Origin: Bradyrhizobium diazoefficiens
Lineage (GTDB): Bacteria; Pseudomonadota; Alphaproteobacteria; Rhizobiales; Xanthobacteraceae
Assembly: GCF_016612535.1 (NCBI RefSeq)
Contig: NZ_JAENXS010000002.1
Location: 1,488,001-1,552,000 of the forward strand
Direction: 5' to 3'
DNA: 64,000 nt
The notes beneath the pieces are model-generated. The model was given only the letters and a program-made list of their open reading frames with translations, ran no database searches and was not told the origin of the DNA. Shown piece after piece: positions 1-18,804 of the stretch (within the stretch, counting starts at the first letter, position 1; each line of letters starts with the position of its first letter). Position numbers and translations under genes: made by a program.

Positions 1-1344
<1,344 letters not shown>

Positions 1345-1348
<4 letters not shown>

Positions 1349-2325: not shown

Positions 2326-3314
2326 GGCTTCGTCCTCCGCAGCCGCGCCATCATGCCGGCAAAACCCGACAGTTTCGGCGATTGCAGCAGCAGCACCGCG
2401 AGCACCACCACGGCCTTGACCAGCAGGTTGAACTCCGGCGGATAGCCGGACAGCAGGATGCCGGTGTTCATGGTCTGGATGATCAGCGCGCCCAACACCG
2501 CCAGGACGAGGCTGAAGCGCCCGCCGAACAGTGAGGTGCCACCTATCACGACCGCGAGAATCGCGTCGAGCTCGAGCCAGAGCCCGGCATTGTTGGCGTC
2601 CGCCCCCATGATGTCGGCTGCCGCGATTACGCCGGCGAGCGCGGCGCAGACGCCGCACCAGACATAGACCGAAAGGATCATCGCGCGGGTGCCGACGCCG
2701 GCCAGCTCGCTCGCCCGCGCATTGCCGCCGGTCGCCTCGATCAGGAGTCCGAGCGCGGTACCGCGCACCACCGCGCCGGTGAGGATCAGCATGCCAAGCG
2801 CAATCGCAATCGGAACCGGCAGGCCGAGAATGGCGCCATTGCCGAGCCACACCAGGTCCGGTGAGGAGAACGTCACGATGCGCCCTTCGGTGATCAGTTG
2901 GGCGATGCCGCGTCCCGCCACCATCAGGATCAGCGTGGCCACGATCGGCTGCATGCCGAGCACCGCGACGAGAAAACCGTTCCAAAGGCCGCAGACAAGG
3001 CCTGTGCCGAGCGCCGCAGCCAGCACCACCGGCAGGCTGTGGCCGTCGGCAAGGCTTGCCGCGATCGCGCCGGAGATCGCCATCACCGCACCAACCGAGA
3101 GATCGATGCCGCGCGTCGCGATCACCAGTACCATGCCGAGCGAGAGCAGCGCCACCGGCGTGCCGCGGTTGAGCACGTCGATGACGCTGCCGAACAGACG
3201 GCCATCCTGAAGGCGCAGATCGAAGAATTGCGGCGACACCACGCGGTCGACCGCGAGGATGACGATCAGCGCGAGAATCTGGGCAAGGCCGCGGCGCGGC
3301 AACAGCGCGGTCAT
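2322..3314 (-). CDS. ytfT: Sugar ABC transporter permease, YtfT-like
   Basis: 330-residue inner-membrane permease of the ribose/galactose importer class. It contains the class signature ATRGIDLSVGAVMA (about residues 64-77) and a second conserved segment, LAVVIGGTSLFGG (about 252-264). The ATG overlaps the ATPase stop (ATGA) and the TGA overlaps the next permease start, so the four downstream cistrons are translationally chained. Predicted to pair with the YjfF-like subunit and to be driven by the YtfR-like ATPase. Confidence 0.87.
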   Translation of the reverse strand: MTALLPRRGLAQILALIVILAVDRVVSPQFFDLRLQDGRLFGSVIDVLNRGTPVALLSLGMVLVIATRGIDLSVGAVMAISGAIAASLADGHSLPVVLAAALGTGLVCGLWNGFLVAVLGMQPIVATLILMVAGRGIAQLITEGRIVTFSSPDLVWLGNGAILGLPVPIAIALGMLILTGAVVRGTALGLLIEATGGNARASELAGVGTRAMILSVYVWCGVCAALAGVIAAADIMGADANNAGLWLELDAILAVVIGGTSLFGGRFSLVLAVLGALIIQTMNTGILLSGYPPEFNLLVKAVVVLAVLLLQSPKLSGFAGMMARLRRTKP

Positions 3315-4852: not shown

Positions 4853-4930
4853 AACGACGTCACTCCCACCGGCGCCCGCTTATGCTGCGGACACCCAGCC
4901 TATTCGTTCGTGCGGCGGATTCGAAGGGGG

Positions 4931-4953
4931 CCGGACCACAAAGCGTGGTCCGG
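4931..4953 (-). promoter_or_regulatory. Stem-loop between binding-protein and ATPase genes
   Basis: Perfect 9-bp inverted repeat CCGGACCAC / GTGGTCCGG with a 5-nt loop, lying between the ytfQ-like stop and the ytfR-like start. On the transcribed strand it is not followed by a T run, so it is more likely an mRNA-stabilising or attenuating hairpin that raises the ratio of binding protein to membrane subunits, as is common in binding-protein-dependent operons. Function is inference. Confidence 0.6.
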
Positions 4954-4966
4954 CGAAGCGCCCGCC

Positions 4967-5932
4967 TCAGTAACCGAGGCCCTTCTTGCTGTCGTATTCC
5001 TTCTGCGGATCGTCGGCAGCCGTGAGAAGCCTGGATTCGGTCTGAATCCACTTCGGCGGAACGGTGCCCTTCTCCTTGAACGCCGCGACGGCGTCGAAGG
5101 CCGGCCCCGCCATGTTCGGTGTCAGCTCGACCGTCGCATTGGCTTCGCCGGCGACCATCGCCTTGAAGATATCGGGGACCGCGTCGATGGACACCGTGAG
5201 GATGTCCTTGCCCGGCTTGAGGCCGGCTTCCTTCATGGCCTGGATCGCTCCGACCATCATGTCATCATTGTGGGCGTAGACCGCGCAGATCGTCTTGCCG
5301 CCGCCTTCGGCCTTGATGAAGCTCTCCATGACTTCCTTGCCCTTGGCACGGGTGAAGTCACCGGTCTGGCTGCGCACCACCTTCAAATTGGCGTGCTTGG
5401 CGATGGCGGTGTCAAAGCCCTTCTTGCGATTGGCGGCGACGCTGGCACCCACCGTGCCCTGCAACTCGACGATGTTGCAGGCCTTGTCGCCGACGGTCTT
5501 GGCCAGCCAGTCGCCAGCGACCGCGCCTTCGTGCACGCTGTCCGAGGTGACGGCGGTGAGATAGAGTTCCTTGCCGGAAGGGTCGATGTCGCGATCGAGC
5601 AGCACGACCGGGATCTTGGCCTCCTTGGCTTCCTTCAGCACGGAATCCCAGCCGGTCGAGACCACGGGCGCGAGGAAGATCGCATCGACATTCTGCGCGA
5701 TGAAGGAGCGGATCGCCTTGATCTGGTTCTCCTGCTTCTGCTGCGCGTCGGCGATCTTGAGATTGACCTTGCGCTTGGCGGCCTCCTGCTTGGAGACCGA
5801 GGTCTCGGCCGCGCGCCAGCCGGATTCCGATCCGATCTGCGAGAAGCCGATGGTGAGCTCTGCGGCATGGGCCGGCAGTGCGAGCAGCAACGCGGCTGTG
5901 GCGCTGGCCGCAAAGAGGGCTTTGAGGGTCAT
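4967..5932 (-). CDS. ytfQ: Galactofuranose-type sugar-binding protein, YtfQ-like
   Basis: 321-residue periplasmic binding protein (Peripla_BP_4 type). A signal peptide is clear (MTLKALFAASATAALLLALP, cleaved after AHA at about residue 24). The mature start LTIGFSQIGSESGWRAAET and the segments KIADAQQKQENQIKAIRSF, VYAHNDDMMVGAIQAMKEAG and ANATVELTPNMAGPAFD are close to those of E. coli YtfQ, which binds galactofuranose; in other proteobacteria relatives bind galactose or arabinose. First gene of the operon. An upstream in-frame ATG exists but would place extra residues before the signal peptide, so the MTLKAL start is preferred. Confidence 0.92.
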   Translation of the reverse strand: MTLKALFAASATAALLLALPAHAAELTIGFSQIGSESGWRAAETSVSKQEAAKRKVNLKIADAQQKQENQIKAIRSFIAQNVDAIFLAPVVSTGWDSVLKEAKEAKIPVVLLDRDIDPSGKELYLTAVTSDSVHEGAVAGDWLAKTVGDKACNIVELQGTVGASVAANRKKGFDTAIAKHANLKVVRSQTGDFTRAKGKEVMESFIKAEGGGKTICAVYAHNDDMMVGAIQAMKEAGLKPGKDILTVSIDAVPDIFKAMVAGEANATVELTPNMAGPAFDAVAAFKEKGTVPPKWIQTESRLLTAADDPQKEYDSKKGLGY

Positions 5933-6029
5933 CAGGCGTGTCTCCCAAGATGTTATCCGGGGCACCGCTTGGTAGCATGGCACCCTCAGGCCGACCTTCG
6001 AGGCGGCGGAGGCACTATTTCACGGAAAA

Positions 6030-6240: not shown

Positions 6241-7413
6241 CTAAATCACCTTGCGCTGCGCCAGGTTCTTCATCAGCGCACCGATGCCGAAGGTCCAGGG
6301 CTCGCATTCGTCGCTGGTGCGCATGCGGTTGACGAGCTTGCCGAGCTGAGGTGCAGCGATCGTAACGATGTCGTCGCGCTTGTGAGTGAACCCCTGCCCC
6401 GGCGCATCGCGATCCCTGACCGGCGCGAACATCGTGCCGAGGAACAACACGAATCCATCCGGATATTGATGCACCTTGCCGATCGTCTGCGCGACCAGAT
6501 CGGTCGGATCACGGCTGATCATGCTGATCGAGGAATGGCCGTCGAGGACAAAACCGTCCGCCCCCTTCACGTTCAGGCTGATGTCGAGCTTGCGCGCATC
6601 GTCGAGCGAAAAACTGTCGTCGAACAGCCGCAGCAGAGGGCCGATCGAACAGGACGCGTTGTTGTCCTTGGCCTTCGACAACAGCAGCGCCGAACGTCCC
6701 TCGAAGTCGCGCAAATTCACGTCGTTGCCGAGCGCGCCGCCGACGATCTTGCCGCGGCTCGACACGAACAGCACGAGTTCCGGCTCGGGATTGTTCCAGG
6801 TCGACTTCGGATGCAGCCCGGCATCCATGCCGGTACCGACCGACGACAAGGTCGGCGCTTTGGTGAAGACCTCGGCATCTGGGCCGATGCCGACTTCGAG
6901 ATATTGGCTCCAGGCGTTCTGGTCGATCAGCACCTGCTTCAGGTGCATCGCCTGATCCGAGCCCGGCTTGAGCTTTGAGAGATCGTCACCGATCAGCCGC
7001 GTCACCTCTTTCCGGATCGCTTCGGCCGAGGCCGGGTTGCCCTTCGCCCGCTCCTCGATCACGCGCTCCAGCATCGAAATCGCGAAGGTGACGCCGGCCG
7101 CTTTCAGGGTCTGCAGGTCGACCGGCGCGAGCAGCCAGGGCTTATTCGGATCGCGCCCATCGGGCGCCGTATTGGCGACGGTGGCATCGAGATCGCCGAT
7201 GCGTTCGCCCTTCGTCGCGGCCAGCGCCTTGGCCGGATTGTCCTCCTCGCATAGCGCGCTGACGGTCGGGAATTTGGCGGTGACGTCGAAGACGCCGTCG
7301 CTGCGCACGGCAACAACGGCCGGGCCGTTCGCCTGCGGCAGCCAGACGCGGCCGACCAGCGTCCCCTTCGTTCCATCCTCGGGGAGAAGGTCTTTGACAG
7401 TCAAAGTCGTCAT
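6241..7413 (-). CDS. Fumarylacetoacetate hydrolase (FAH) family protein
   Basis: 390-residue cytoplasmic enzyme with an FAH fold in the C-terminal two thirds. Metal-binding acidic residues of the family are seen in PEPELVLFVS (about residues 204-213), and GGALGNDVNLRDFEGRSALL (about 220-239) is the conserved catalytic block. The family uses divalent metal to hydrolyse or dehydrate 2-oxo acids. Its proximity to a sugar importer and a sugar dehydrogenase makes a 2-keto-3-deoxy-sugar-acid dehydratase (AraD1-like role) attractive, but a true FAH or other hydrolase cannot be excluded. The ATG (MTTLTVKDLL) is preferred over the longer frame because upstream residues do not match the family. Confidence 0.72.
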   Translation of the reverse strand: MTTLTVKDLLPEDGTKGTLVGRVWLPQANGPAVVAVRSDGVFDVTAKFPTVSALCEEDNPAKALAATKGERIGDLDATVANTAPDGRDPNKPWLLAPVDLQTLKAAGVTFAISMLERVIEERAKGNPASAEAIRKEVTRLIGDDLSKLKPGSDQAMHLKQVLIDQNAWSQYLEVGIGPDAEVFTKAPTLSSVGTGMDAGLHPKSTWNNPEPELVLFVSSRGKIVGGALGNDVNLRDFEGRSALLLSKAKDNNASCSIGPLLRLFDDSFSLDDARKLDISLNVKGADGFVLDGHSSISMISRDPTDLVAQTIGKVHQYPDGFVLFLGTMFAPVRDRDAPGQGFTHKRDDIVTIAAPQLGKLVNRMRTSDECEPWTFGIGALMKNLAQRKVI

Positions 7414-7527: not shown

Positions 7528-8505
7528 CTATGCCCCTGCCCGCGCCTTTCGGGCCGCAATTTGCTGGAGCGCCCAGCGCGCGTTCTTGCGAACATCGGGA
7601 TCGGGATCGTCGGCTATGACGGCCAGGAACGCCTCGCCGTCAGGATGGGCGATCTCGCCGAGCGCGGCGGCGGCTTCCTTCCGCAGATTCGCCTGGTCGT
7701 GGTTGACGCAATTGCCGATCGGGCGCACCGCGCGCTCGATCTTCATCTTGCCGAGGCTGCGGATCGCCTTCAGCCGCACCTGCCAGAACTCGTCGGCGAG
7801 CGCGCCGACGAGCTGATCGGCGGCGATCAATCCGTTGACGTTGAGACCGAGCGTCTCCGCCGCCATCTCGCGGACCATCCAGTCGGTGTCCTTCAGTGCG
7901 CGCGTCACCGTCTCCGCCGCGGGCTTCATCTGCGAGAAGGCCAGCGCGCTTACTGCCGCACGCCGTACATGCGCATCGGGGTCGTTGATCAGTGCGGTCA
8001 ACGCTGGAATGGATTCCTCCAGCTTGAGAAAACCGATCACGCCGATCGCCTGCACGCGCACGGCGGCCTCGGTATCCTGCAGCGCTTCCAGCGCCGGCTT
8101 GAGCATATCCTTGCGGCGCAGCTCCTTCAGCGCGCGCAGCGCGCCCATGCGCACGAAAGCGTGGGCGTGCCTGACCAGCGGCAGGATGACATCGGCGCAA
8201 GCCGGATCCTTGAACTCGGCCATGCTATCGGCCGCGGCCGCTGCGACGATTCTCTCGGGATCAACCAGCAGCTTCACCAGCGCACCTGCTGCTTCCGGCC
8301 CGTCGAACTCGCCGAGCGCCATCGCGACCTGCTGGCGCACACCGGCATCGGGATCGGCGGCCATGTTGGCGAGATGGCCGACGGCCGCGGGATCGCCGGA
8401 ATGGCCGAGCGCGATGATGGCGACGCGGCGCTCGCCGGGATCGGCGGCCTGGAGCCGCTCGTCGGCGTCTTCGAGATCGTCGTAAGATTCGAACGGGCTC
8501 GACAT
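7528..8505 (-). CDS. HEAT-repeat protein of the flavoprotein/ferredoxin operon
   Basis: 325-residue soluble protein built almost entirely of HEAT (PBS-lyase-like) repeats of about 31 residues, for example DPDAGVRQQVAMALGEF, DPDAHVRRAAVSALAF, DTDWMVREMAAETLGL and DPDPDVRKNARWALQQI. It has no signal peptide, membrane segment or catalytic motif and is likely a scaffold or partner protein. The ATG lies two bases from the ferredoxin stop, so it is cotranscribed with the 2x[4Fe-4S] ferredoxin and AprA-like flavoprotein. A role in assembling or docking that redox complex is inference from the operon. Confidence 0.82.
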   Translation of the reverse strand: MSSPFESYDDLEDADERLQAADPGERRVAIIALGHSGDPAAVGHLANMAADPDAGVRQQVAMALGEFDGPEAAGALVKLLVDPERIVAAAAADSMAEFKDPACADVILPLVRHAHAFVRMGALRALKELRRKDMLKPALEALQDTEAAVRVQAIGVIGFLKLEESIPALTALINDPDAHVRRAAVSALAFSQMKPAAETVTRALKDTDWMVREMAAETLGLNVNGLIAADQLVGALADEFWQVRLKAIRSLGKMKIERAVRPIGNCVNHDQANLRKEAAAALGEIAHPDGEAFLAVIADDPDPDVRKNARWALQQIAARKARAGA

Positions 8506-8507
8506 GA

Positions 8508-8741
8508 TCACCTCAACAGATAGGGAATGTTGACGGTGACGGCGCCGGTCGGGCAATCGGCCTCGCAGGGCATGCAGTACCAGCACTCGTCATAGGCCAT
8601 GTAGGCTTTGCCGGTCATGTCGCTGATGCGGAGCACGTCGAGCGGGCAGACGTCGACGCAGACGGTGCAACCCTTGTCGGCGATGCATTTGGCGTCGTCG
8701 ACGACCACCGGAACCGAGGTCTGATGGGAAGCGAGAGGCAT
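8508..8741 (-). CDS. 2x[4Fe-4S] ferredoxin, partner of the AprA-like flavoprotein
   Basis: 77-residue ferredoxin with two cluster motifs: C19-x5-C25-x2-C28-x3-C32-P and C53-x2-C56-x2-C59-x3-C63-P. All eight ligands are present, and the longer first motif resembles the iron-sulfur subunit of adenylylsulfate reductase (AprB) more than a classic clostridial ferredoxin. Lies 34 bp downstream of the flavoprotein and 2 bp upstream of the HEAT-repeat gene. It probably passes electrons between the flavoprotein and a reductase. The longer open frame upstream would overlap the flavoprotein, so the short ATG start is used. Confidence 0.88.
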   Translation of the reverse strand: MPLASHQTSVPVVVDDAKCIADKGCTVCVDVCPLDVLRISDMTGKAYMAYDECWYCMPCEADCPTGAVTVNIPYLLR

Positions 8742-8775
8742 TTTATGTCTCCTGTTGCTTGCAATTGGCGGTGGA

Positions 8776-10518
8776 TCAGGCGGTGGCGCGGATGCGCTGC
8801 TTGTCGTAGAGGTCCTTCTCGTCGTCCGCGATCGGCACGACATAGGGCTCCACGGCACGCTTCTCGCTGGTCATCTTGCCATGCTGCTTGCTGAGCAGCG
8901 TATGGCAGAACCAGTTCTCGTTGTCCTTCTCCGGAAAATCCGTGCGCCAGTGATAGAGGCCCCAGCGGCTCTCCTCGCGATAGAGCGAGGCATGCACCGC
9001 CATGTCGGCGCAATCCATGATCGACTGCACTTCGAGGGCGCGCAGCAATTCATGCGCATTGCGCGCGATCATGCGCTCCTGCATGTCTTCCCTTGCCTCG
9101 GCGAGGCGACGCATGCCGAGCTCGTATTTGCGCGTCACCTTCGGCGGCTGCAGATAGTCGTTGACGAGGCGGCGGGTCTTGTACTCGACCTGGTTCGGCG
9201 GGATGCCGTCCTCGCGCTTGGTCGGCGCCATCACGCGGTCGCGCTCCTTTGCGACTTCGGCAGCATCGAACTCCGCGAAGTCATGGTTCTCGGCAAATTC
9301 CATCGCGTCGGTGCCCGCGACCGAACCGTTGGTGAAGGCACCAAGCATGTAGTTGTGGGGCACACTCGCCATGTCGCCGGCGGCGTAGAGGCCGGGCACG
9401 GTGGTGCGGGCATTGTCGTCCACGAACACACCGGAGGCGCTGTGGCCCGAGCAGAAGCCGATTTCCGAGATGTGCATCTCGATCGACTCCTTGCGGTAGT
9501 CGATGCCGCGTCCTTGCTGGAACAGGCCGCGCGTCGGACGCTCGACCTTGTGCAGCGTGGATTCGATTTCCTCGATGGTGTTCGGATGGAGGTGCTTGAG
9601 CTGGAGGAACACCGGCCCCTTGCCGGACAACAGCTCGTTGTAGAACTCCAGCATCATCTGGCCGGACCAGTAGTCGCATTCGATGAAGCGGGAGCCTTCG
9701 TTGTTGGCGGTGAAAGCGCCGAAGGGACCGGCGACGTAGGCGCAGGCCGGGCCGTTGTAGTCCTTGATCAGCGGGTTGATCTGATAGCATTCGAGATTCG
9801 CGAGCGCAGCGCCGGCGTGATAGGCCATGGAATAGCCGTCACCGGAATTGGCGGCGTTCTCGTAGGTGCCGAACATGTAGCCCGAGGTCGGCAGACCGAG
9901 CCGACCGGCGGCGCCCATGCAGAGAATCACGGCCTTGGCCTTGATGACGAGGATCTCGGCGGTGCGGGTGTTGACGGAGATTGCGCCGGCGATACGGCCG
10001 TCGGTGGATTTGAGCAGCCGCGTCGCCATGTAGCGGTTGGAGATCAGGATGCGGGCACGGCGGAGCTGGCGATACAGCGCCTTCTTCACGGTCTCGCCGT
10101 TTGGCATCGGCAGAACGTAGCTGCCGATGTGATGCACCTTCTTGACGGCGTAATCGCCGTTCTCGTTCTTCAGGAAGCGGATGCCGAAACTGTCGAGCTC
10201 CTCGACAATCTTGTAGCAATTTTGCGCGTATTTATAGACCGCCTTCTGGTCGACGATGCCGTCGTTGGCGATGGTGATTTCCTTGGTGTATTGCTCCGGC
10301 GTCGCGTAGCCGGGGATGACGGCGTTGTTCAGACCGTCCATGCCCATCGAGATCGCGCCGGAGCGCTTGACGTTGGCCTTTTCGAGCAGGACGACATTGG
10401 CCTTCGGATTCTTCAGCTTCGCCTTCAGGGCGGCCATCGGGCCGGCCGTGCCGCCACCGATGACGAGCACGTCGCAGGAAACCTCCGAAAGTCCGTCGAC
10501 GATCTGATCTAGTGCCAT
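8776..10518 (-). CDS. FAD-dependent AprA/fumarate reductase-like flavoprotein
   Basis: 580-residue cytoplasmic flavoprotein of the succinate dehydrogenase/fumarate reductase/AprA superfamily. The FAD-binding GGGTAG sits at residues 21-26 with the ADP-ribose acid in VVLLEKANVKRSG; a second FAD contact is GLYAAGDMASVPHNYMLGA (about residues 385-403). The C-terminal helical domain (LYREESRWGLYHWRTDFPEK) is like that of AprA and SdhA. It lacks a Tat signal. With the ferredoxin downstream it resembles an AprAB pair, but no ATP sulfurylase or sulfur-oxidation gene is in the window, so APS reductase activity is doubtful; an assimilatory or detoxifying redox reaction on the compound imported by the linked ABC system is possible. 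Confidence 0.83.
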   Translation of the reverse strand: MALDQIVDGLSEVSCDVLVIGGGTAGPMAALKAKLKNPKANVVLLEKANVKRSGAISMGMDGLNNAVIPGYATPEQYTKEITIANDGIVDQKAVYKYAQNCYKIVEELDSFGIRFLKNENGDYAVKKVHHIGSYVLPMPNGETVKKALYRQLRRARILISNRYMATRLLKSTDGRIAGAISVNTRTAEILVIKAKAVILCMGAAGRLGLPTSGYMFGTYENAANSGDGYSMAYHAGAALANLECYQINPLIKDYNGPACAYVAGPFGAFTANNEGSRFIECDYWSGQMMLEFYNELLSGKGPVFLQLKHLHPNTIEEIESTLHKVERPTRGLFQQGRGIDYRKESIEMHISEIGFCSGHSASGVFVDDNARTTVPGLYAAGDMASVPHNYMLGAFTNGSVAGTDAMEFAENHDFAEFDAAEVAKERDRVMAPTKREDGIPPNQVEYKTRRLVNDYLQPPKVTRKYELGMRRLAEAREDMQERMIARNAHELLRALEVQSIMDCADMAVHASLYREESRWGLYHWRTDFPEKDNENWFCHTLLSKQHGKMTSEKRAVEPYVVPIADDEKDLYDKQRIRATA

Positions 10519-10576
10519 CGCTTGCTCCTGGTTCGCCGGCAGGTCCGGCGCTTTGCATCAGATTTGTTCAGGTGAC

Positions 10577-10609
10577 GTCCCGGCGATAGCAATTAGTTGT
10601 CGCCGGGAC
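10577..10609 (-). promoter_or_regulatory. Stem-loop between ferredoxin reductase and flavoprotein genes
   Basis: Perfect 10-bp inverted repeat GTCCCGGCGA / TCGCCGGGAC with a 13-nt loop in the 103-bp gap between the reductase stop and the flavoprotein start. No T run follows on the minus strand. It may be an mRNA-processing or partial-termination element separating the reductase message from the downstream three genes. Confidence 0.5.
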
Positions 10610-10621
10610 GCGATTTGCGCC

Positions 10622-11395
10622 TCAGCGCTCGACGAAGGCCTTTTCGATCACGAAATGGCCGGGCTGGCTGTGGTTGCCCTCGACGAAGCCGCGCGCGGAG
10701 AACATCGCGGGCAGTTCGTCGAGCATCGCCGGGCTGCCGCACAGCATGATGCGATCGGCCTCGATATCGAGGCCGGATTGGCCGAGATCGTCAAACATCT
10801 GGTTCGACGCGATCAGATCGGTGATGCGACCGCGATTCCTGAACGGCTCGCGGGTCACGGTCGGGTAATAGACAAGCTTGTCGCGGATCAGCGGCCCGAA
10901 GAATTCGTGATTGCGCAAGCCTTCGACGAGGTGCTCGCCATAGGCGAGCTCGGAGACCTGGCGGCAGCCATGGGCGAGCACGATGGTCTCGTAATTCTCG
11001 TAGACATCGGGGTCCTTGATCAGGCTGGCAAAGGGTGCGAGCCCGGTCCCGGTCGACAGCAGCAGCAGACGCTTGCCCGGGATGAGATTGCCGGTGATCA
11101 GTGTGCCCGTCGCCTTGCGGCCGACCAGGATGATGTCGCCTTCCCTGATCGTCTGCAGGCGCGAGGTCAGCGGACCATCCTGCACCTTGATCGAGAAGAA
11201 TTCGAGCTCTTCCTCATGGTTGGCGCTGGCCATGCTATAGGCCCGCATCAACGGCTTGCCCTCGACCTCCAGGCCGATCATCGCGAACTGGCCATTCTGG
11301 AAGCGAAAGCCGGGATCGCGCGTCGCGGTGAAGCTGAATAGGGACTCGGTCCAGTGCCGGACCGACAAAACCGTTTCCTTCTGAAATGCGCTCAT
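10622..11395 (-). CDS. fpr: Ferredoxin--NADP reductase
   Basis: 257-residue FAD-dependent ferredoxin/flavodoxin-NADP reductase of the bacterial Fpr class. The FAD-binding RAYSMAS motif (RxYS type, about residues 51-57), the NADP-binding STGTGLAPFASLIKDP (about 114-129) and the C-terminal CGSPAMLDE and VEKAFVER-like tail (VIEKAFVER) are all present. Bacterial Fpr proteins of this length transfer electrons from NADPH to ferredoxin. It is the first gene of the minus-strand cluster leading into the AprA-like flavoprotein and ferredoxin, which makes it the natural electron donor for that pair. Confidence 0.88.
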   Translation of the reverse strand: MSAFQKETVLSVRHWTESLFSFTATRDPGFRFQNGQFAMIGLEVEGKPLMRAYSMASANHEEELEFFSIKVQDGPLTSRLQTIREGDIILVGRKATGTLITGNLIPGKRLLLLSTGTGLAPFASLIKDPDVYENYETIVLAHGCRQVSELAYGEHLVEGLRNHEFFGPLIRDKLVYYPTVTREPFRNRGRITDLIASNQMFDDLGQSGLDIEADRIMLCGSPAMLDELPAMFSARGFVEGNHSQPGHFVIEKAFVER

Positions 11396-11594
11396 CGTCT
11401 CTCCTCAGTCCTCGTTGGCGCGCAAGATTTCGGAGAGAGCGGATTCCGGCAACGCGGAAGTCGAATTCCCGGTCGATTAGTTTCACATTTGGCGGGCGGT
11501 GGTTGAAGAGCAGGCACGCGGCCAGGCCTGCGCCGGCAATTAGTTGCTATTCGCGCGCATCCGCACCGACGTAGGAGGAAGACGGAGGTTCGTC

Positions 11595-11924
11595 ATGACC
11601 ATGACCGCATTGGTGGCACCGACCGTGGCCGACTATGAAGCCAGCGCCGATCTCGCGACACTGATCGTCCGCACCACCGAGGGCGACGCGTTCAGCGTTC
11701 CCGCCGAGCAGCTGCGTCTCTCCTGCAAATGCGCCCACTGCACCCGCGCTCGGTTCGACGGCCGCTTCCCGGAAGCGTTTCCAGGGATTGCGATCACCGA
11801 GATCGGGGATCTCGGCTATGGAGTGAACATCGCGTTCTCGGATGGGCATAACCGCGGGATTTATCCGAAGCCATTTTTGCTGAGTTTGGCTGCCGGCAGA
11901 CAACTCTGCATCCTGAACGTCTGA
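11595..11924 (+). CDS. DUF971 domain protein
   Basis: 109-residue protein matching DUF971, the small domain also found at the N-terminus of gamma-butyrobetaine hydroxylase. The family cysteine motif is visible (LSCKCAHCTRAR, about residues 38-49), and the C-terminal GYGVNIAFSDGHNRGIYP block is typical. DUF971 proteins often sit beside iron-sulfur genes; metal binding through the cysteines is plausible. The ATG at 11595 is preceded by GGAGG-like sequence (acggaggttcgtc). It is divergent from fpr with a 199-bp shared promoter region and is followed by the Crp/Fnr gene. Confidence 0.82.
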   Translation: MTMTALVAPTVADYEASADLATLIVRTTEGDAFSVPAEQLRLSCKCAHCTRARFDGRFPEAFPGIAITEIGDLGYGVNIAFSDGHNRGIYPKPFLLSLAAGRQLCILNV

Positions 11925-11937
11925 TCTTCGTCACCAG

Positions 11938-12023
11938 CGTCATGGCCGGGCTTGTCGCGGCCATCCACGAACTGCCAAAATTGAGAAAACACGTGGATGC
12001 CCGGGACAAGCCCGGGCATGACG
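11938..12023. repeat. Dispersed inverted repeat, Bradyrhizobium type
   Basis: Two 31-bp arms (11938-11968 and 11993-12023) match in inverted orientation at 28 of 31 positions and can fold into a long hairpin with a 24-nt loop. The arms share the core cccgggcttgtcccgg with the repeat at 6185-6214. It occupies most of the gap between the DUF971 and Crp/Fnr genes. Confidence 0.75.
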
Positions 12024-12074
12024 GCCGAGGAGGCTTCGCCCTTCCCCCATCTGGCACGGACATTGCTCCTCTTT

Positions 12075-12093
12075 GGAACGATTTCAACGTTCC
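12075..12093. promoter_or_regulatory. Inverted repeat in the leader of the Crp/Fnr gene
   Basis: Perfect repeat GGAACG / CGTTCC with a 7-nt spacer, immediately followed by the ribosome-binding site GGAGG (12094-12098) and the ATG at 12105. It could be an operator for autoregulation or an RNA hairpin controlling translation start. It does not match the canonical FNR or CRP consensus. Confidence 0.45.
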
Positions 12094-12104
12094 GGAGGCA
12101 AACG

Positions 12105-12878
12105 ATGTTGCAGGCGGCGAGTGCGGTTCGCGGGGCGGTTTCCCCGGCAGTCCGGCCTGCGGGCAGCTCCTCGCTGCTGCTCACCGAAAACCAGCAATGG
12201 ATCGGCGGGCCGCCGCCGCTGATGGACAAGCTCGGCCAGCGCGAGCGCGAGTTGGTGCTGAAGCAGGGCCGCCGCAAAGTGCTCAACCGCGGCCAGACGC
12301 TGTTCAGCCAGGGCGGCAAGCATGACGGCATCTGGCTGATCGAAAGCGGCCGCATCCGCGTGTTCTACACTTCGCCACTCGGGCGCGAGATCACGCTGGC
12401 CTACTGGCATGTCGGCAATTTCGTCGGCGGACCAGAAGTGTTCGAGGGCACCGTGCATCAATGGTCGGGGGTTGCATCCAGCAATTGCAGCGTCGTGCAC
12501 CTGCCCGGAAAGGAGCTGCGGTCGCTTGCCGTAGAGATCCCCAACCTGGCCATCGGCCTGATCGAAGGCCTCACCTTCAAAGGCAAGTGCTATTCGGCGC
12601 TGGCCCAGATGCTGGGAACGCGCTCGATCACGCAGCGTCTTGCGCACCTGCTGCTACACCTCGTCGATCTCTACGGGGTCGAGGATGGCGACGGTCGGGT
12701 GATCGCGGCTGCCTTCACCCATGCCGACATTGCCCACATGGTCGGCGCCACCCGCCAATGGGTCACGATCAGCCTCAAGCGCATGCAGGAGAAGGGAATC
12801 GTCGTTACCAAGCGGTCGCAGATCGTGGTCTGCCGGGCCGATGTGCTGGAAGAGATGCGCGGACAAGGCGCCGACTAA
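12105..12878 (+). CDS. Crp/Fnr-family transcriptional regulator
   Basis: 257-residue regulator with a cyclic-nucleotide-binding-like beta-roll (about residues 60-160, IWLIESGRIRVFYTSPLGREITLAYW) and a C-terminal winged helix (about 185-250, HADIAHMVGATRQWVTISLKRMQEKG). The N-terminal cysteine set that binds the FNR iron-sulfur cluster is absent, so it is not an oxygen-sensing FNR of the classic type. The ATG with GGAGG six bases upstream is preferred over upstream frames that run into the repeat. Located between DUF971 and the ABC transporter, it is the likely regulator of this whole block. Confidence 0.85.
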   Translation: MLQAASAVRGAVSPAVRPAGSSSLLLTENQQWIGGPPPLMDKLGQRERELVLKQGRRKVLNRGQTLFSQGGKHDGIWLIESGRIRVFYTSPLGREITLAYWHVGNFVGGPEVFEGTVHQWSGVASSNCSVVHLPGKELRSLAVEIPNLAIGLIEGLTFKGKCYSALAQMLGTRSITQRLAHLLLHLVDLYGVEDGDGRVIAAAFTHADIAHMVGATRQWVTISLKRMQEKGIVVTKRSQIVVCRADVLEEMRGQGAD

Positions 12879-12879
12879 G

Positions 12880-12900
12880 GCCGCTGCACAGGTAAGCGGC
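12880..12900 (+). terminator. Weak hairpin after the Crp/Fnr gene
   Basis: GCCGCT / AGCGGC with a 9-nt loop just after the stop codon, extendable by three more pairs and followed by ttta. A weak intrinsic terminator or processing site is possible; it separates the regulator from the transporter genes. Confidence 0.4.
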
Positions 12901-13031
12901 TTTATAGTGCAGGACTGCCCAAGGAGTATGCAATCAGCTTTTCCCGGCAACTAATCGACTGCGGCGGTCATTCCGGATTTGCCCTGTCCACGCCCTCACC
13001 CAATCATGGCAACCACAGCACATCCAACCGA

Positions 13032-14465
13032 ATGAGGATGAGAATGGTCCGCCATCTTTCCACGCTCTCGATCGCGATATCGGTGACGTCGCTAGCGTTA
13101 ATCCTTGCGCAACCGGCTTTGGCGGAAACCGTGACGCTCGGCATCGGTACGCAGGACACCACGACCAACACGGTGACCGCCGGTATCGTCATCCGCCAGC
13201 TCCATCTCCTCGAAAAGTATCTGCCAAAGGATGGCAAATACGCCAACATCAAGTTCGAGCTGGAGTGGCAGAACTTCACGTCCGGCCCGCCCGTCACCAA
13301 TGCGATGATGGCGAACAAGTTGCAGATCGGCATGATGGGCGACTACCCGCTGATCGTGAACGGCTTCACCTTCGACAGCAATCCCGAGAGCAAGAGCCGT
13401 CTGATCGGCGTCGCCGCCTACAGCCTCTCCGGCTCCGGCAACGGCATCGTCGTCCACAAGGACTCGCCCTATTACGAGCTCGCCGATCTCAAGGGCAAGC
13501 TCGTCAGCGTGCCCTTCGGCTCCGCCGCGCACGGCATGGTGTTGAAGGCGATGCAGGACCGCGGCTACTCTGCAGACTTCTTCCAGCTCGTCAGCCAGAG
13601 CCCGGAGGTCGGCTCGACCAATCTCCAGGAAAAGAAGATCGACGCGCATGCCGACTTCGTCCCCTTCGCCGAGCTCTTGCCGTTCCGCGGTTTTGCGCGA
13701 AAGATCTTTGACGGTGTCGAGACCAATTTGCCGACCTGGCATGGCATCGTGGTCCGCACCGATTTCGCCGAAAAATATCCAGAGGTGGTCGTCGCCTATA
13801 TGAAGGCGCTGCTTGCCGCCAACCAGTGGCTGCGCGACGATCCGAAGCTTGCCGCCGAGAAAATCCAGGAATGGACCGGCATCAACAAGGAAGTCGTCTA
13901 CATCTTCCTCGGCCCCGGCGGCAACATGACGACCGACCCCACGATCAAGCCGGCGCTGATCGATGCCGCCGCGACCGACGTCAAGGTGCTGCAGAATCTC
14001 GGCCGCATGAAGGAATTCGATCCGAAGAAATGGGCCGATGACAGCTACATCCGCAAGGCCTATGCCGAGATGAAGCTCGACTATGACGCGCAGCTTGCGA
14101 GCACCAAGAACTACGAAATCTCCGGCGAAGACACTTTCTGCAAGAAGCCCATCACCGATCCGCGCAAGGCCGGCGAGGTCTGGGTCGACGAGGTCGGCAT
14201 CATGCCGTTCTCGTCCGCCGCCTGCACGCTGGGCGCCTATGCCGACTTCAAGGCCAAGGGCAAGAAGATCAACGTCGCCTACATCTTCGACACCACGCGC
14301 GGCATCAAGCTGTTCGCCGACCAGGCCTTCTTCGCGGTCGGCACTGGCGAGGTCGCACCGTTCCTGCTGAAGAAGGACGCGGACGCCTATGCCGCCAAGA
14401 TCAGCGGCAAGGTGCTCGGCTTCGACGACGCAGTGAAGGCGGCAGTCAGCGGAGGCAAGACGTGA
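13032..14465 (+). CDS. NitT/TauT-type ABC substrate-binding protein with C-terminal NosL-like domain
   Basis: 477-residue periplasmic protein. Signal peptide at residues 1-31 (cleavage after ALA). Residues about 32-345 are an SsuA/TauA/NrtA-like binding domain (GTQDTTTNTVTAGIVIRQL; DLKGKLVSVPFGSAAHGMVL; the peptide DAHADFVPFAELLP). Beyond about residue 385 the sequence leaves that fold: AYIFDTTRGIKLFADQAFFA followed by APFLLKKDADAYAA and GKVLGFDDA resembles the NosL copper-binding domain, with a cysteine at about 398. A binding protein with such a tail is unusual. Starts at 13038 and 13044 are also possible (MRMRMVR). The stop overlaps the permease start as GTGA. Confidence 0.82.
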   Translation: MRMRMVRHLSTLSIAISVTSLALILAQPALAETVTLGIGTQDTTTNTVTAGIVIRQLHLLEKYLPKDGKYANIKFELEWQNFTSGPPVTNAMMANKLQIGMMGDYPLIVNGFTFDSNPESKSRLIGVAAYSLSGSGNGIVVHKDSPYYELADLKGKLVSVPFGSAAHGMVLKAMQDRGYSADFFQLVSQSPEVGSTNLQEKKIDAHADFVPFAELLPFRGFARKIFDGVETNLPTWHGIVVRTDFAEKYPEVVVAYMKALLAANQWLRDDPKLAAEKIQEWTGINKEVVYIFLGPGGNMTTDPTIKPALIDAAATDVKVLQNLGRMKEFDPKKWADDSYIRKAYAEMKLDYDAQLASTKNYEISGEDTFCKKPITDPRKAGEVWVDEVGIMPFSSAACTLGAYADFKAKGKKINVAYIFDTTRGIKLFADQAFFAVGTGEVAPFLLKKDADAYAAKISGKVLGFDDAVKAAVSGGKT

Positions 14466-15373
14466 GCAGTCCGGCCATCCTCAGACATTCCGAGGACAGC
14501 ATGTCAGCAGCAACCGCAATTTCAGAGGCGGGCCCCGTGCCCGCCACCACGCCGCCCGCGACACCGCCCTCCTTCGGCACGCTGGCACTGCGCTGGTATC
14601 GGCTCAACCAGGGCCGGCTGCGCGCGACCGCGATCGGGATCATCTCGCTGCTCGCCTTCCTGCTGGTCTGGCACCTGCTCACGACCTACCGCGTCGTGTT
14701 CTTCGTGCGCTTCACCAACGTGCCCTCGCCAGTTGAAGTCTATGCGAGCTTTACCAGGGCGATCCACGACCCCAAATTCCTGCTGCACGTCGTGCTGAGC
14801 TGCCGGCGCATCTTCTTCGGCTTCTCGCTCGCCGCGATCGTCGGCGTGCCGACCGGCCTGATCATGGGTCGCTTCAAGCTGGTACACGAGATCGTCTTCC
14901 CGGTGGCGGAGGTGCTGCGGCCGATCCCGGCGATCGCCTGGGTACCGATGGCGATCATGCTGTGGCCGACCAACGAGCAGAGCATCGTCTTCATCACCTT
15001 CCTCGGCTCGTTCTTCCCGATCCTGGTCAACACGCTGCACGGCATGTCTCTGGTCGATCCCGTGCTGGTGCGCGCGGCGCAATGCCTCGGCGCGCGCGAA
15101 CGCTCGATCTTCCGCGAAGTGTATTTTCCGGCATCGCTGCCGCACATCTTTACCGGGCTCACCGTCGGCATGGGCGTGGCCTGGGTGTCGCTGATCGCGG
15201 CCGAGATGATCTCCGGCCAGTACGGCATCGGCTACTTCACCTGGGAGGCCTATTCGCTGGTCCAGTATCCCGACATCGCGCTCGGCATGATCGCGATCGG
15301 CGTGCTTGGCCTGGGATCGAGCCTGATCATCCGGGGCGCGGGGCAATTGGTGATGCCGTGGAGGCCAAGATGA
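14462..15373 (+). CDS. NitT/TauT-type ABC transporter permease
   Basis: 303-residue inner-membrane permease of the SsuC/TauC/NrtB class with about six hydrophobic helices. The cytoplasmic EAA-like loop that docks the ATPase is VRAAQCLGARERSIFREVYFP (about residues 200-220). The first 45 residues are a proline/alanine-rich cytosolic tail. The GTG start overlaps the binding-protein stop (GTGA); an in-frame ATG lies 13 codons further in. Its own stop overlaps the ATPase start (ATGA), giving a tightly coupled three-gene transporter operon. Confidence 0.88.
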   Translation: MSSPAILRHSEDSMSAATAISEAGPVPATTPPATPPSFGTLALRWYRLNQGRLRATAIGIISLLAFLLVWHLLTTYRVVFFVRFTNVPSPVEVYASFTRAIHDPKFLLHVVLSCRRIFFGFSLAAIVGVPTGLIMGRFKLVHEIVFPVAEVLRPIPAIAWVPMAIMLWPTNEQSIVFITFLGSFFPILVNTLHGMSLVDPVLVRAAQCLGARERSIFREVYFPASLPHIFTGLTVGMGVAWVSLIAAEMISGQYGIGYFTWEAYSLVQYPDIALGMIAIGVLGLGSSLIIRGAGQLVMPWRPR

Positions 15374-16242
15374 ACGAGATCGTGACCAAGGCACCGCAGG
15401 GCCATATCGACGTCAGGAATTTCTCCCTGAGCTACGACAGTATCGAGGGACCGGTTCAGGCCGTCACCGATACGCAGATCCATGTGAATCCCGGCGAGTT
15501 CGTCTCGATCGTCGGCCCCTCCGGCTGCGGAAAGTCGACGCTGCTCAATGCGGTTGCCGGCTTCCTCAAGCCGACCACCGGCGTGGTCACCGTCGACGGC
15601 GAGCGGGTCAGCGGCCCCAGCGCCGAGCGCGGCATGGTGTTCCAGCAATATTCGCTGTTTCCCTGGAAGACGGTGCGGGAGAATGTCGAGTTCGGCCTGA
15701 AGATGCGCGGCATGGCGCGCTCGCAGCGCGAGCGTGCGGCACGGACGCTGCTTGGGCTCGCCGGACTCGAGGCCTTCGAGAAGCACTATCCGGAAAAGCT
15801 CTCGGGCGGCATGAAGCAGCGCGTCGGCATCGTCCGCGCGCTCGCGACCGGGCCGAAAGTTCTGCTGCTGGACGAGCCCTTCGGCGCGCTGGACGCGCAG
15901 ACCCGGGTCATCATGCAGCAGATCCTCACCAACATGTGGCAGCGGCTGAAGATCTCGGTGCTGTTCGTCACCCACGACATCGACGAGGCCATCTTCCTCT
16001 CCGACCGGGTCTACTGCATGACCGCCCGCCCCGGCTCGATCAAGGCGGAGATCCCGATTCCGCTGGAGCGGCCACGGCAGCAATCGATGATGATGTCGTC
16101 GGAATTTCTGGCGCTGCGCCGCGGCCTGATGTCGCTGATCCGCGAGGAGAGCCTGAAAGCGATGGGCGGCGAGATCAATGACATGGGCCTACAGGGGCTC
16201 AACATCGAGCTGCACGGCCATTCGCTGGCGGATGTGATTTAG
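15370..16242 (+). CDS. NitT/TauT-type ABC transporter ATP-binding protein
   Basis: 290-residue ATPase of the nitrate/sulfonate/taurine importer class. Walker A GPSGCGKST (about residues 47-55), signature LSGGMKQR (about 143-150), Walker B VLLLDEPFGALD (about 163-174) and the switch histidine in LFVTHDIDEA are intact. A C-terminal tail of about 60 residues follows the ATPase core. Last gene of the transporter operon; the next downstream sequence is the insertion element. Confidence 0.9.
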   Translation: MNEIVTKAPQGHIDVRNFSLSYDSIEGPVQAVTDTQIHVNPGEFVSIVGPSGCGKSTLLNAVAGFLKPTTGVVTVDGERVSGPSAERGMVFQQYSLFPWKTVRENVEFGLKMRGMARSQRERAARTLLGLAGLEAFEKHYPEKLSGGMKQRVGIVRALATGPKVLLLDEPFGALDAQTRVIMQQILTNMWQRLKISVLFVTHDIDEAIFLSDRVYCMTARPGSIKAEIPIPLERPRQQSMMMSSEFLALRRGLMSLIREESLKAMGGEINDMGLQGLNIELHGHSLADVI

Positions 16243-16457: not shown

Positions 16458-17429
16458 TCAGGTGACGGACACACTCACGGTTTTGGGCGGTTCAGCGACC
16501 CACGGTGTTCCGCGGGCGACGACGGCGTTGATGATGACGATCAGCTTTCTGGCACAGGCGACGAGCGCGCGCTTGTGGCCCTTGCCGGCGGCGATCAGCC
16601 GGCTGTACAGGGCCATGAGCTGCGGGTTCCAGCGGAAGGAGGCCGGAAGAGCTGCGGTGTAGAGTGCCTGACGCAAGCGCTGGCGTCCGCCGTCAATTCG
16701 ACGGGCGCCGATATGCTTGCCGCTGTCGTCATCGTAAGGCGCAAGTCCGGTGAGGGCTGCGGCTTGCTCGCGGGTGATCCGACCGATCTCGGGCATCCTG
16801 ATCAAGATGGCAACCGCGGTCGGCAAGCCGCTGCCGCCAACGCTGTAGATCAGATCGAGACGTGCGGCGAGATCGCGATGCTTGCGGATCGCTGCCACCA
16901 AGGCCTTGAACTCGGCTCGTCTGTGCTTGGCCAACAGAGCAATCTGCTCCTTCCAGAACTTCTGGATACGCTCGTCACGGCAGCTCTCCAGCCGATTTTT
17001 GAGCTTTGCGATGTCCTCCTTGATCTGGTCGATCATCGTCAGATGCACGGCAAAGGGCTGCAGCCGGGGGTCTGGAGCGGGATGGATGTTCTTGACCGCG
17101 GCGGTGCAGGCCGCAATCAACGCAGCATCGATCTTGTCGTTCTTGGCCCGTTGCAAATGGAACGTGGCATAGGCACGGACCTGGATCGGCTGAAATACGA
17201 TGACGACAAACCGCTTGCGTCGCAGTTCGGCAACCGCCGCCTGCTCATAACCACCGCTCGCCTCGATCCCAACCCTCTTGACCTTGTGGCGCTTCAGCCA
17301 CTCCACCAACTCCTGGTGACCTTCCGCCGTGTTCTTGACCTGCAGCTCCTCCGAACTGCCATCGAGCGCCACGTCGAGCTTGTCTTTGCTAGTATCGATT
17401 CCGGCACAGATCGTGTTACGTTTGGCCAT
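16458..17429 (-). CDS. IS110-family transposase (DEDD recombinase)
   Basis: 323-residue transposase. The N-terminal RuvC-like domain has the DEDD residues in CAGIDTSKDKLDVAL (residues about 7-21), VGIEASGGYE (about 57-66) and AKNDKIDAALIAA (about 95-107). The C-terminal Transposase_20 domain contains IYSVGGSGLPTAVAIL and GLAPYDDDSGKHIGARRI. The frame is intact, so the element may still be active. A further in-frame start 16 codons upstream (MVERTSG) is possible, but the MAKRNTI start fits the family. Confidence 0.92.
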   Translation of the reverse strand: MAKRNTICAGIDTSKDKLDVALDGSSEELQVKNTAEGHQELVEWLKRHKVKRVGIEASGGYEQAAVAELRRKRFVVIVFQPIQVRAYATFHLQRAKNDKIDAALIAACTAAVKNIHPAPDPRLQPFAVHLTMIDQIKEDIAKLKNRLESCRDERIQKFWKEQIALLAKHRRAEFKALVAAIRKHRDLAARLDLIYSVGGSGLPTAVAILIRMPEIGRITREQAAALTGLAPYDDDSGKHIGARRIDGGRQRLRQALYTAALPASFRWNPQLMALYSRLIAAGKGHKRALVACARKLIVIINAVVARGTPWVAEPPKTVSVSVT

Positions 17430-17563
17430 CTTCCTCGACCCTCCCTTGTGATGCGAACCTGAAGTTCGTTCAACCATGCGGGTCCCGATGAAGTGCCGAC
17501 CGCGATCTTGCTACGAAACGCAGCTCTCAGGGGCTTCGGTGGGCATCGATCCGATCGATCGGC

Positions 17564-17745: not shown

Positions 17746-18804
17746 TCACTTGAACCAGTGCACCAGCGCGATGCTGATGCCGAGCAGGAGCAGCAGCGAC
17801 AGCGTCACGGCCGCCGTTACCCGGCCGCCGACATTGGCGAGCACCTTCACATCGACGCCGAGACCGAGTGCCGCCATCGACACCACCGTGAGGAAGCTCG
17901 TGATCCGCGTGATCGGGGCAACCACCGTGCCCGGCACGATCTCCAGCGAGCGCAACGTCGCCAGCACGAGGAAGCCGAGGATGAACCACGGCACCAGGCG
18001 GAAGAAGCCGATATTGGTCTTCTTGGCACCGGTCTGCCAGCGTGAGGCGACCAGCGACAGGCCGACGACCACGGGGCCGAGCATCAAGACGCGCATCAGC
18101 TTGACCAGCGTACCGATCTGCGTGGAGACGAGACCAGCCGGCACCGTCGCGGCCAGCACTTGAGGCACGGCATAGACGGTGAGACCCGCCAGGATGCCGT
18201 ATTGCGTGGCGGTGAGCTGCAATAGCGGGATCAACAGCGGCAGGCCCAGCACCATCATCACGCCGAGGATCGCAGTGAAGGAGATCGAGGATGCAATCTC
18301 GTCGCTATTGGCGCCGATGATCGGCGCCACCGCCGCGATTGCCGAATTGCCGCAGATGGAGTTGCCGCAGGCGATCAGGATCGACAGCCGCGTCGATAGT
18401 CCAAGCAGGCGGCTGAGCCCGAACGAGACGGTGAGCGCGATCACAACCACGGCTGCAATCGACGCCAGGAGCGCGATGCCTGAGGCCGCGATTGCCGCAA
18501 AGCTGATGGAGGCGCCGAGCAGCATGACCGCGACTTCGAGCAGCTGCTTGGCGCTGAAGGCGATGCCGGCCTGCCAGCGCGGCGCGGGTTTCCAGAAGCT
18601 GCGAACGGCCATCCCAAGCAGGATCGCCATCACCAGCGCCTCGACATAGGGATGCTCGAAGATGCCGAGTTCGAAACGTTCGAGCAGGGCCGAGACGCCG
18701 GCCACGGCGATGCACAGGAGGATGCCGGGAATCAGCGCGACGATGCGGCTAACGGCAGTGGCTGGTTTGGCGTCGGCCGGGCTGGATGCTTGATTTTGCG
18801 ACAC
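17746..18804 (-). CDS. YeiH-family putative sulfate exporter
   Basis: 352-residue integral membrane protein of the YeiH/PSE family with about ten to eleven hydrophobic helices. The family signature CGNSICGNSAIAAVAPIIGA (about residues 145-164) is intact. These proteins are annotated as putative sulfate exporters; the substrate is not established for most members. The N-terminus is a polar 20-residue tail and there is no partner gene next to it. Presence near a transporter/redox block of possible organosulfur function is suggestive only. Confidence 0.82.
   Translation of the reverse strand: MSQNQASSPADAKPATAVSRIVALIPGILLCIAVAGVSALLERFELGIFEHPYVEALVMAILLGMAVRSFWKPAPRWQAGIAFSAKQLLEVAVMLLGASISFAAIAASGIALLASIAAVVVIALTVSFGLSRLLGLSTRLSILIACGNSICGNSAIAAVAPIIGANSDEIASSISFTAILGVMMVLGLPLLIPLLQLTATQYGILAGLTVYAVPQVLAATVPAGLVSTQIGTLVKLMRVLMLGPVVVGLSLVASRWQTGAKKTNIGFFRLVPWFILGFLVLATLRSLEIVPGTVVAPITRITSFLTVVSMAALGLGVDVKVLANVGGRVTAAVTLSLLLLLGISIALVHWFK

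Follow-up and report, generated by a model that had tools for sequence, protein, structure and literature searches.

The 64,000-nucleotide stretch of Bradyrhizobium diazoefficiens DNA analysed here (the window, G000:C2:1488001-1552000 of an 8.0-Mb genome) harbors a block of nine open frames at positions 7528-16242, split over two divergent gene runs, each of which, judging from gene order, would form one operon. The minus-strand run is composed of redox genes, encoding a HEAT-repeat protein of 325 amino acids (7528-8505; Pfam HEAT_2, 1.6e-55), a ferredoxin of 77 amino acids with 8 cysteines (8508-8741; Fer4_7, with weak HgcB/AprB matches), a 580-amino-acid flavoprotein of the AprA/fumarate-reductase fold (8776-10518; NF006131) and an Fpr-type NADPH:ferredoxin reductase of 257 amino acids (10622-11395). 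The plus-strand run encodes a DUF971 (GBBH-like_N) protein of 109 amino acids (11595-11924; PF06155, 49.1 bits), a Crp-family regulator (12105-12878; cNMP_binding and HTH_Crp_2) and an ATP-binding cassette (ABC) importer of NitT/TauT type. The latter consists of a SsuA/TauA-type periplasmic binding protein with a NosL-like tail (13032-14465), a permease (14462-15373, with a GTG start that is uncertain; BPD_transp_1) and an ATPase (approximately 15376-16242, start not fixed; ABC_tran). An earlier reading of this DNA, made from the letters without database searches (the sequence-only reading), had proposed this nine-gene block; all nine genes were confirmed as open frames, and Pfam and NCBIfam assigned every protein to a family, DUF971 by Pfam alone.

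The two halves of the block, redox genes and importer, belong to one conserved unit, and the case that their linkage goes beyond chance is strong. Co-occurrence was scored in 398 genomes sampled evenly across the phylum, with E-value limits of our own choosing (at most 1e-100 for the flavoprotein, 1e-30 for the HEAT protein and 1e-40 for the binding protein, weaker homologues being unlisted). The flavoprotein was present in 21 of these genomes, spanning 10 genera, and the HEAT protein in the identical 21. The binding protein was found in 20, every one among the same 21; genome G363 alone has the flavoprotein without it, and in G068 it is encoded away from the flavoprotein locus. The hypergeometric P for the overlap of binding protein and flavoprotein is about 8e-33, a value that ignores the relatedness of the sampled genomes and therefore overstates the case. 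The block is unevenly distributed inside the genus: of the 41 genomes searched, its own included, 13 contained a flavoprotein above the family cut-off, all 13 in one genus. Genome G001 has two partial flavoprotein matches on two contigs, one of them containing a stop. The window flavoprotein is 92-98% identical to the copies on 24 Bradyrhizobium contigs, and loci L135 and L139 carry a type that is 74% identical.

Gene neighbourhoods were compared in 119 loci (32 genome loci, 7 plasmid records and 80 named genome contigs), which include four duplicate pairs and thus amount to 115 distinct loci. The 80 contigs are the best 80 of at least 590 stretches with a flavoprotein relative, and so lean to close relatives. 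A reduced set of 74 loci without duplicates was picked by hand; the 45 loci left out (L055-L070, L073, L074, L103-L128 and L138) are mostly near-identical Bradyrhizobium, with L057 and L124-L127 as exceptions. Counts are family-profile matches within 9.5 kb of the flavoprotein gene, and a gene matched as importer may be another copy than the one of the module. In the distinct loci, a ferredoxin was present in 115 of 115 cases and a HEAT protein in 114; DUF971 followed with 105, the complete importer (three genes) with 99, Crp with 76, the reductase with 63 and the full nine-gene set with 59. The single HEAT exception is L094, where HEAT is fused to the flavoprotein. The corresponding numbers for the reduced set are 74, 73, 64, 59, 36, 25 and 22. 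As controls, 20 regions of 20 kb each were drawn at random from these genomes; ABC ATPases were found in 6 of them and no other block family was matched. The sequence-only reading had linked the two halves and suggested a search for all nine genes together, considering that the halves might mostly occur apart; its linkage is borne out in the loci compared, where separation is the minority case.

Gene order varies by lineage. It is flavoprotein-ferredoxin-importer-HEAT-DUF971 in Paraburkholderia (L157, L158 and L163) and divergent in Bradyrhizobium, and co-location with reshuffled order spans Alpha-, Beta- and Gammaproteobacteria. This shuffling suggests that the association is maintained by selection, beyond recent shared descent. 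Over 53 loci, protein distances correlate with those of the flavoprotein at 0.73 for HEAT, 0.59 for ferredoxin and 0.50 for DUF971.

Both halves also contain copies of one operator. Its core, CAACTAAT[T/C]G, appears in its fullest form inside the palindrome ATAGCAA-N4-TTGCTAT. All core copies in the window, three exact and one with a single mismatch, are intergenic: ACAACTAATTG (10590-10600, minus strand) lies upstream of the flavoprotein gene, GAAACTAATCG, with one mismatch (11474-11484, minus strand), and GCAACTAATTG (11537-11547, minus strand) lie between the divergent gene runs, and GCAACTAATCG (12947-12957, plus strand) lies upstream of the binding-protein gene. The sequence GGCAACTAAT, upstream of the latter gene, is kept in the window and in 23 of 23 aligned relatives (22 Bradyrhizobium-type and one Rhodopseudomonas). 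The exact motif RCAACTAATYG has 8 sites genome-wide, 3 of them inside the block, against 0 for the reversed control. No excess was seen when one mismatch was allowed genome-wide (15 sites against 15 for the reversed control) or when the window was searched loosely with two mismatches (10 matches against 14 expected from shuffles).

The 119 loci, duplicates included, yielded 167 cores, spread over 68 of them; 398 kb of control yielded none. Near module gene starts lie 156 of the 167 (51 at the binding protein, 50 at the flavoprotein, 44 at DUF971 and 11 at the reductase). The core is present in 63 of the 80 loci with a Crp gene and in 5 of the 39 without one. In the reduced set, a core near a module gene occurs in 18/36 loci with Crp and 3/38 without, and the longer operator form in 18/36 and 0/38, respectively; the reversed motif gave 3/36 and 1/38. 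This distribution makes it probable that the Crp-family protein binds the shared operator. One of the five exact genomic sites outside the block, in locus L224 (G000:C2:2390000-2398000), has the full GCAACTAATTGC palindrome. Positions 397-5150 of this locus encode a Crp paralogue (50% over 210 amino acids), a second NitT/TauT importer and a calcineurin-like phosphoesterase, with palindromic operator-like sites at 1202 and 3910, one of which is two mismatches from the 11-mer. Since L224 was found by the motif alone, it gives independent support for this Crp subfamily reading the motif, and it may represent a related regulon that serves a different compound. The shared operator provides a handle on when the module is switched on. 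Regulator genes of other types were also seen in these neighbourhoods: a GntR-type gene is present in 32/74 loci, and a LysR gene was met near the plasmid copy L093 without a LysR-directed search.

The flavoprotein, single-copy in its own genome (other genomic matches are 24-32% identical), is a full member of NF006131 (PRK08275), with 1060.6 bits against a cut-off of 587; this is the sole curated model passed among its best 25 families. Its closest solved structures are the alpha subunit of 3'-phosphoadenosine 5'-phosphosulfate (PAPS) reductase from Methanothermococcus (8a8o, 2e-63) and then adenosine 5'-phosphosulfate (APS) reductase (1e-38), in keeping with the AprA-like nature first assigned to it. 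The same reading had left room for a known enzyme, such as a genuine APS reductase or aspartate oxidase. The scores fall below the cut-offs of the APS reductase models (TIGR02061, 163 bits against 641.75; NF005331, 288 against 557), of the L-aspartate oxidase model (TIGR00551, 133.7 against 452.75) and of the succinate dehydrogenase/fumarate reductase models (169 bits against 567 and 172 against 826). In the alignment to APS reductase, Leu250 and Tyr219 take the places of AprA Arg265 and Trp234, which, by number and role, we take to be substrate-site residues of that enzyme. The substrate residues of FrdA are presumably H232 (in QxHPT) and R390 (in GANRLG). Here QINPL replaces QYHPT of Escherichia coli FrdA and QFHPT of NadB, with Asn248 at the histidine position, and the GANRLG segment of E. 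coli FrdA was not found in the aligned window flavoprotein. Tyr219, Asn248 and Leu250 are invariant in alignments of 14 and 23 family members (L131, which has a stop in frame, was left out of a later one); thus the family has its own residue set at these sites. With sub-cut-off scores and the key residues absent, identification as APS reductase, fumarate reductase or aspartate oxidase was rejected. The flavoprotein is probably a catalytic subunit. The genome collection contains at least 590 stretches with a relative of it, and plasmids recorded from rhizobia, cyanobacteria, actinobacteria and other groups carry further ones. On the Acidithiobacillus caldus plasmid pTcM1 (L090), the genes for flavoprotein, ferredoxin and HEAT protein are soon followed by one (10574-14032) for an FAD-dependent oxidoreductase of 1153 amino acids, whose sole Pfam match is Pyr_redox_2.

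The other redox genes encode plausible partners. Residues 21-314 of the HEAT protein align to positions 607-896 of PRK13800, a flavoprotein-HEAT model, and in the actinobacterial plasmid relative L094 the HEAT part is fused at the flavoprotein C-terminus (NF010374, that is PRK13800, 1568 bits against a cut-off of 1196), a fusion that supports contact between the two proteins. The ferredoxin has exactly eight cysteines, at 19, 25, 28, 32, 53, 56, 59 and 63, and from this pattern is expected to carry two [4Fe-4S] clusters. The reductase is closest to solved Fpr enzymes (1a8p, 2qdx, 2bgi and others, E 1e-83 to 5e-104). A FdxA-like ferredoxin gene is present in 19/74 loci and adjoins the reductase gene in L134, L150 and L156. 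DUF971 is fused to a Mrp-type protein in HCF101, and by analogy the block protein possibly helps to load Fe-S clusters; in the Nostoc plasmid copy, Mrp/NBP35 is the next annotated gene after HEAT.

For the importer, the NitT/TauT call of the sequence-only reading stands. Among solved structures the binding protein is closest to taurine/sulfonate-binding proteins, its three best matches being TauA and two SsuA (3e-23 to 2e-16), and nitrate/bicarbonate Nrt/Cmp chains match at about 1e-5. All three importer proteins score below curated cut-offs: the binding protein has 121 bits with SsuA_fam (cut-off 163.5) and 66.5 with TauA (304), the permease 149 with SaoP, 142 with NtrB and 116 with TauC, and the ATPase 262 with SaoA and 250 with TauB. 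The neighbourhoods contain some further genes of sulfur type. A second TauC-like permease was found in 11/74 loci (TauC-like permeases in 0/20 controls) and a TauD-like gene in 5/74 (0/20 controls). In addition, TauE is encoded close to one plasmid copy (L093), and metX close to the one from Nostoc.

We tentatively interpret the block as a dedicated module that imports an organosulfonate-like oxyanion and converts it reductively at the expense of NADPH, probably for sulfur. Through the SsuA/TauA-type importer, a small organosulfonate-like oxyanion would enter the cytoplasm. Electrons from NADPH would pass through the Fpr reductase to one or two ferredoxins, and from these to the flavin adenine dinucleotide (FAD) of the AprA-like flavoprotein, which would work in a complex with the 8-cysteine ferredoxin and the HEAT protein. 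The imported compound would thereby be reductively converted, most likely with release of sulfite for sulfur assimilation. DUF971 would probably load the Fe-S clusters, and the Crp-family protein would control the promoters of both halves through the shared operator. We infer the complex, the electron direction, the substrate class, the product, the role of DUF971 and the binding of the motif by Crp; the reductive direction is read from the Fpr type of the reductase and the sulfonate class from the type of importer. In APS reductase, the N5 of the flavin carries sulfite, and by analogy the flavin of the block protein could attack a sulfo group in a similar way. Arg265 is missing, so that substrate anchoring must differ from that of APS reductase. 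The most specific form of the proposal, in which flavoprotein, ferredoxin and HEAT protein would constitute a novel type of O2-independent desulfonating or sulfo-group-cleaving enzyme that attacks an imported organic compound, releases sulfite and is fed by NADPH via ferredoxin, we regard as doubtful.

Several observations weigh against the sulfonate interpretation. The full importer is missing within 9.5 kb in 15/74 loci, 5 of these 15 being on stretches shorter than 19 kb, and importer distances track the flavoprotein less than those of the redox partners do (0.39 for the binding protein, 0.35 for the permease and 0.30 for the ATPase, over the same 53 loci), so the importer evolves faster or is sometimes swapped. 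Sulfur-type neighbours are a minority, and most loci are without an obvious sulfur gene besides the importer type; SsuD-like and SsuE-like genes were found in 0/74 loci. The YeiH family, a putative sulfate exporter, is represented in the window by an associated, non-core gene (17746-18804, minus strand; PF03601, 235 bits; TIGR00698, 149 bits against a cut-off of 232.6). In favour of sulfur, this family neighbours the block in 37 of the 115 distinct loci, at several positions, and in 9/74 against 0/20 controls. However, YeiH is common generally (50/359 genomes), and was rejected as a specific partner. NitT/TauT importers, moreover, also carry nitrate, bicarbonate and other compounds, and the fourth-best solved match of the binding protein is 3e4r, deposited as a nitrate transport protein (4e-16).

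The mixed nature of this transporter family and the 3e4r match would fit a substrate without sulfur, that is, import and reduction of a nitrogen or other oxyanion or of a small carboxylate. The permease scores highest with the SaoP and NtrB models, and the flavoprotein fold is also found in fumarate and aspartate enzymes. We consider such a substrate quite unlikely, given that TauA and SsuA surpass the Nrt/Cmp chains as matches of the binding protein and that the histidine and arginine with which FrdA is understood to bind its substrate are absent from the flavoprotein.

Monooxygenases bear on another explanation, in which flavoprotein and ferredoxin would supply electrons to O2-dependent desulfonation by a monooxygenase encoded elsewhere. 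An arrangement of this kind finds a parallel in the asf cluster of Pseudomonas putida S-313, whose asfA transposon mutants are described as losing aromatic sulfonate use (PMC4267179). The TauD-like genes mentioned above would suit it, as would NtaA/DmoA monooxygenases, present in 8/74 loci against 1/20 controls, an excess that is not clear and that speaks little for sulfonates in general. The conserved block itself has no monooxygenase, and proteins of the AprA fold are usually the catalytic subunit. Furthermore, Cupriavidus metallidurans carries asf genes on a replicon that we take to be NC_007974 of strain CH34 (CHR2, which the record itself calls a megaplasmid); a search of this whole record with the window flavoprotein gave a best match of just 28% (E 2e-16), compared with 54-98% for its relatives found elsewhere. 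Electron supply to a separate oxygenase therefore appears unlikely.

The tail of the binding protein, at approximately residues 380-477, had been connected with copper in the sequence-only reading on account of its likeness to NosL. This part did not hold. The Pfam match is 17.6 bits against a cut-off of 24, and among 63 aligned binding proteins no cysteine, methionine or histidine of the tail reaches 90% conservation (Cys 398 and Cys 370 occur in 18/63 each), so copper binding by the tail was rejected for want of a conserved ligand. The tail itself is kept: of 64 binding proteins considered, 62 have at least 390 amino acids and align over it, and those of L091 and L092 are short. Its conservation is in part selected for, since the tail alignment admitted only proteins of at least 390 amino acids and more than 150 bits, which left out L091, L092 and further Bradyrhizobium loci. 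Genes of copper type do occur around the block, SCO1-like in 11/74 loci and PCuAC-like in 9/74. Among the loci listed, the gene run in Labrenzia (L134), Thalassococcus (L136) and Actibacterium (L137) adds genes for SCO1 and for a membrane protein, together with cytochrome c and/or PCuAC. In these Alphaproteobacteria the copper-type genes are not explained by sulfonate use, against which they also count, and a link to copper or to periplasmic redox chemistry is possible there. A system that would take up or handle a copper species, joining the weakly NosL-like tail with SCO1 and PCuAC, is nevertheless highly improbable, as the tail has no conserved ligand and most of the 74 loci lack the SCO1/PCuAC clusters, which also lie outside the nine-gene block. 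The same SCO1, PCuAC and cytochrome c genes could accompany an oxidative system, in which the flavoprotein would pass electrons from the substrate to ferredoxin and NADP; enzymes of the APS reductase fold work both ways. This direction is very unlikely, since the operon contains an Fpr-type reductase, an enzyme that usually reduces ferredoxin in bacteria, and the importer suggests a nutrient need.

Should the sulfonate interpretation be correct, the block would matter for sulfur nutrition. More than 95% of soil sulfur is organic, chiefly sulfate esters and sulfonates (PMC4267179). If the flavoprotein serves organic sulfur, it represents an overlooked route, and if the desulfonation proposal is true, soil and marine bacteria would obtain organic sulfur by a reductive route that is widespread among them. 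The sequence libraries used attach no function to the flavoprotein family. Its invariant residues are unlike those of the characterised fold members compared, so that its substrate could be identified with a few growth and binding tests.

Other genes of the window are neighbours of the block. Between the importer and the YeiH gene, which are 64 bases apart in relative L058, lies an IS110-family transposase (16458-17477). A FAA-hydrolase-domain protein (6241-7413) adjoins the HEAT gene and is present in 24 of the 115 distinct loci and in 2 of the reduced set. It is thus found mostly in close relatives and stands outside the module. Further away, at 572-5983, there is a GntR/FCD-type regulator with an apparent sugar-type ABC importer (two permeases, a double ATPase and a binding protein, the importer being recognised from translations only).

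The nearest published system found is asf (PMC4267179, PMC9694294 and PMC2864759). In P. putida S-313, asfRABC is described as a reductase/ferredoxin chain with a transporter that complements ssu, and its regulator is of LysR type (PMC4267179); in C. metallidurans, asfRAB is placed on CHR2, with Rmet_4334/5 as locus names (PMC2864759). The window block resembles asf in having a reductase and a ferredoxin alongside a sulfonate-type ABC importer, whereas its regulator belongs to the Crp family and its flavoprotein to another family than that of asf, the latter being judged on NC_007974 of C. metallidurans and not on the AsfA sequence of S-313. Identification of the block as the asf cluster, with asfA as the same gene, was rejected for lack of a close homologue on NC_007974. 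Two candidate pairs for Rmet_4334/5 were detected on this record, neither orthologous to the window flavoprotein. One is TcuA/TcuB; a LysR-type gene lies about 2 kb upstream of it. The other, at about 928 kb (L100, 37390-43863), consists of a ferredoxin and a flavoprotein that is 24% identical to the window flavoprotein over 430 amino acids, and it adjoins an ABC set of sulfonate type; no HEAT or DUF971 match was found in the 50-kb L100 stretch. From its gene content L100 may be a sister architecture, and possibly AsfAB.

No description of this gene set was found in the open-licence full-text literature, a result that leaves absence unproven because most subscription papers lie outside the search, and that agrees with the possibly undescribed function suggested at the outset. 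In the open-licence full text, the names PRK08275, PRK13800 and NF006131 led to a single paper, on fungal signalling, and the passages of PMC8305402, PMC10708946 and PMC10433974 on sulfonate transport and metabolism do not mention the set. NF006131 and NF010374 themselves carry merely a generic fumarate reductase/succinate dehydrogenase name. The block has its flavoprotein fold in common with AprAB and with PAPS reductase of the methanogen (8a8o), along with a small ferredoxin of two clusters that is the likely partner; it differs from them in Leu250 and Tyr219 and in the addition of a HEAT partner and an importer. With Ssu and Tau it shares the transporter family, although ssu and tau employ an oxygenase where a redox flavoprotein chain is found here. 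The module is real and widely conserved, and is an apparently undescribed system in which known parts are newly combined.

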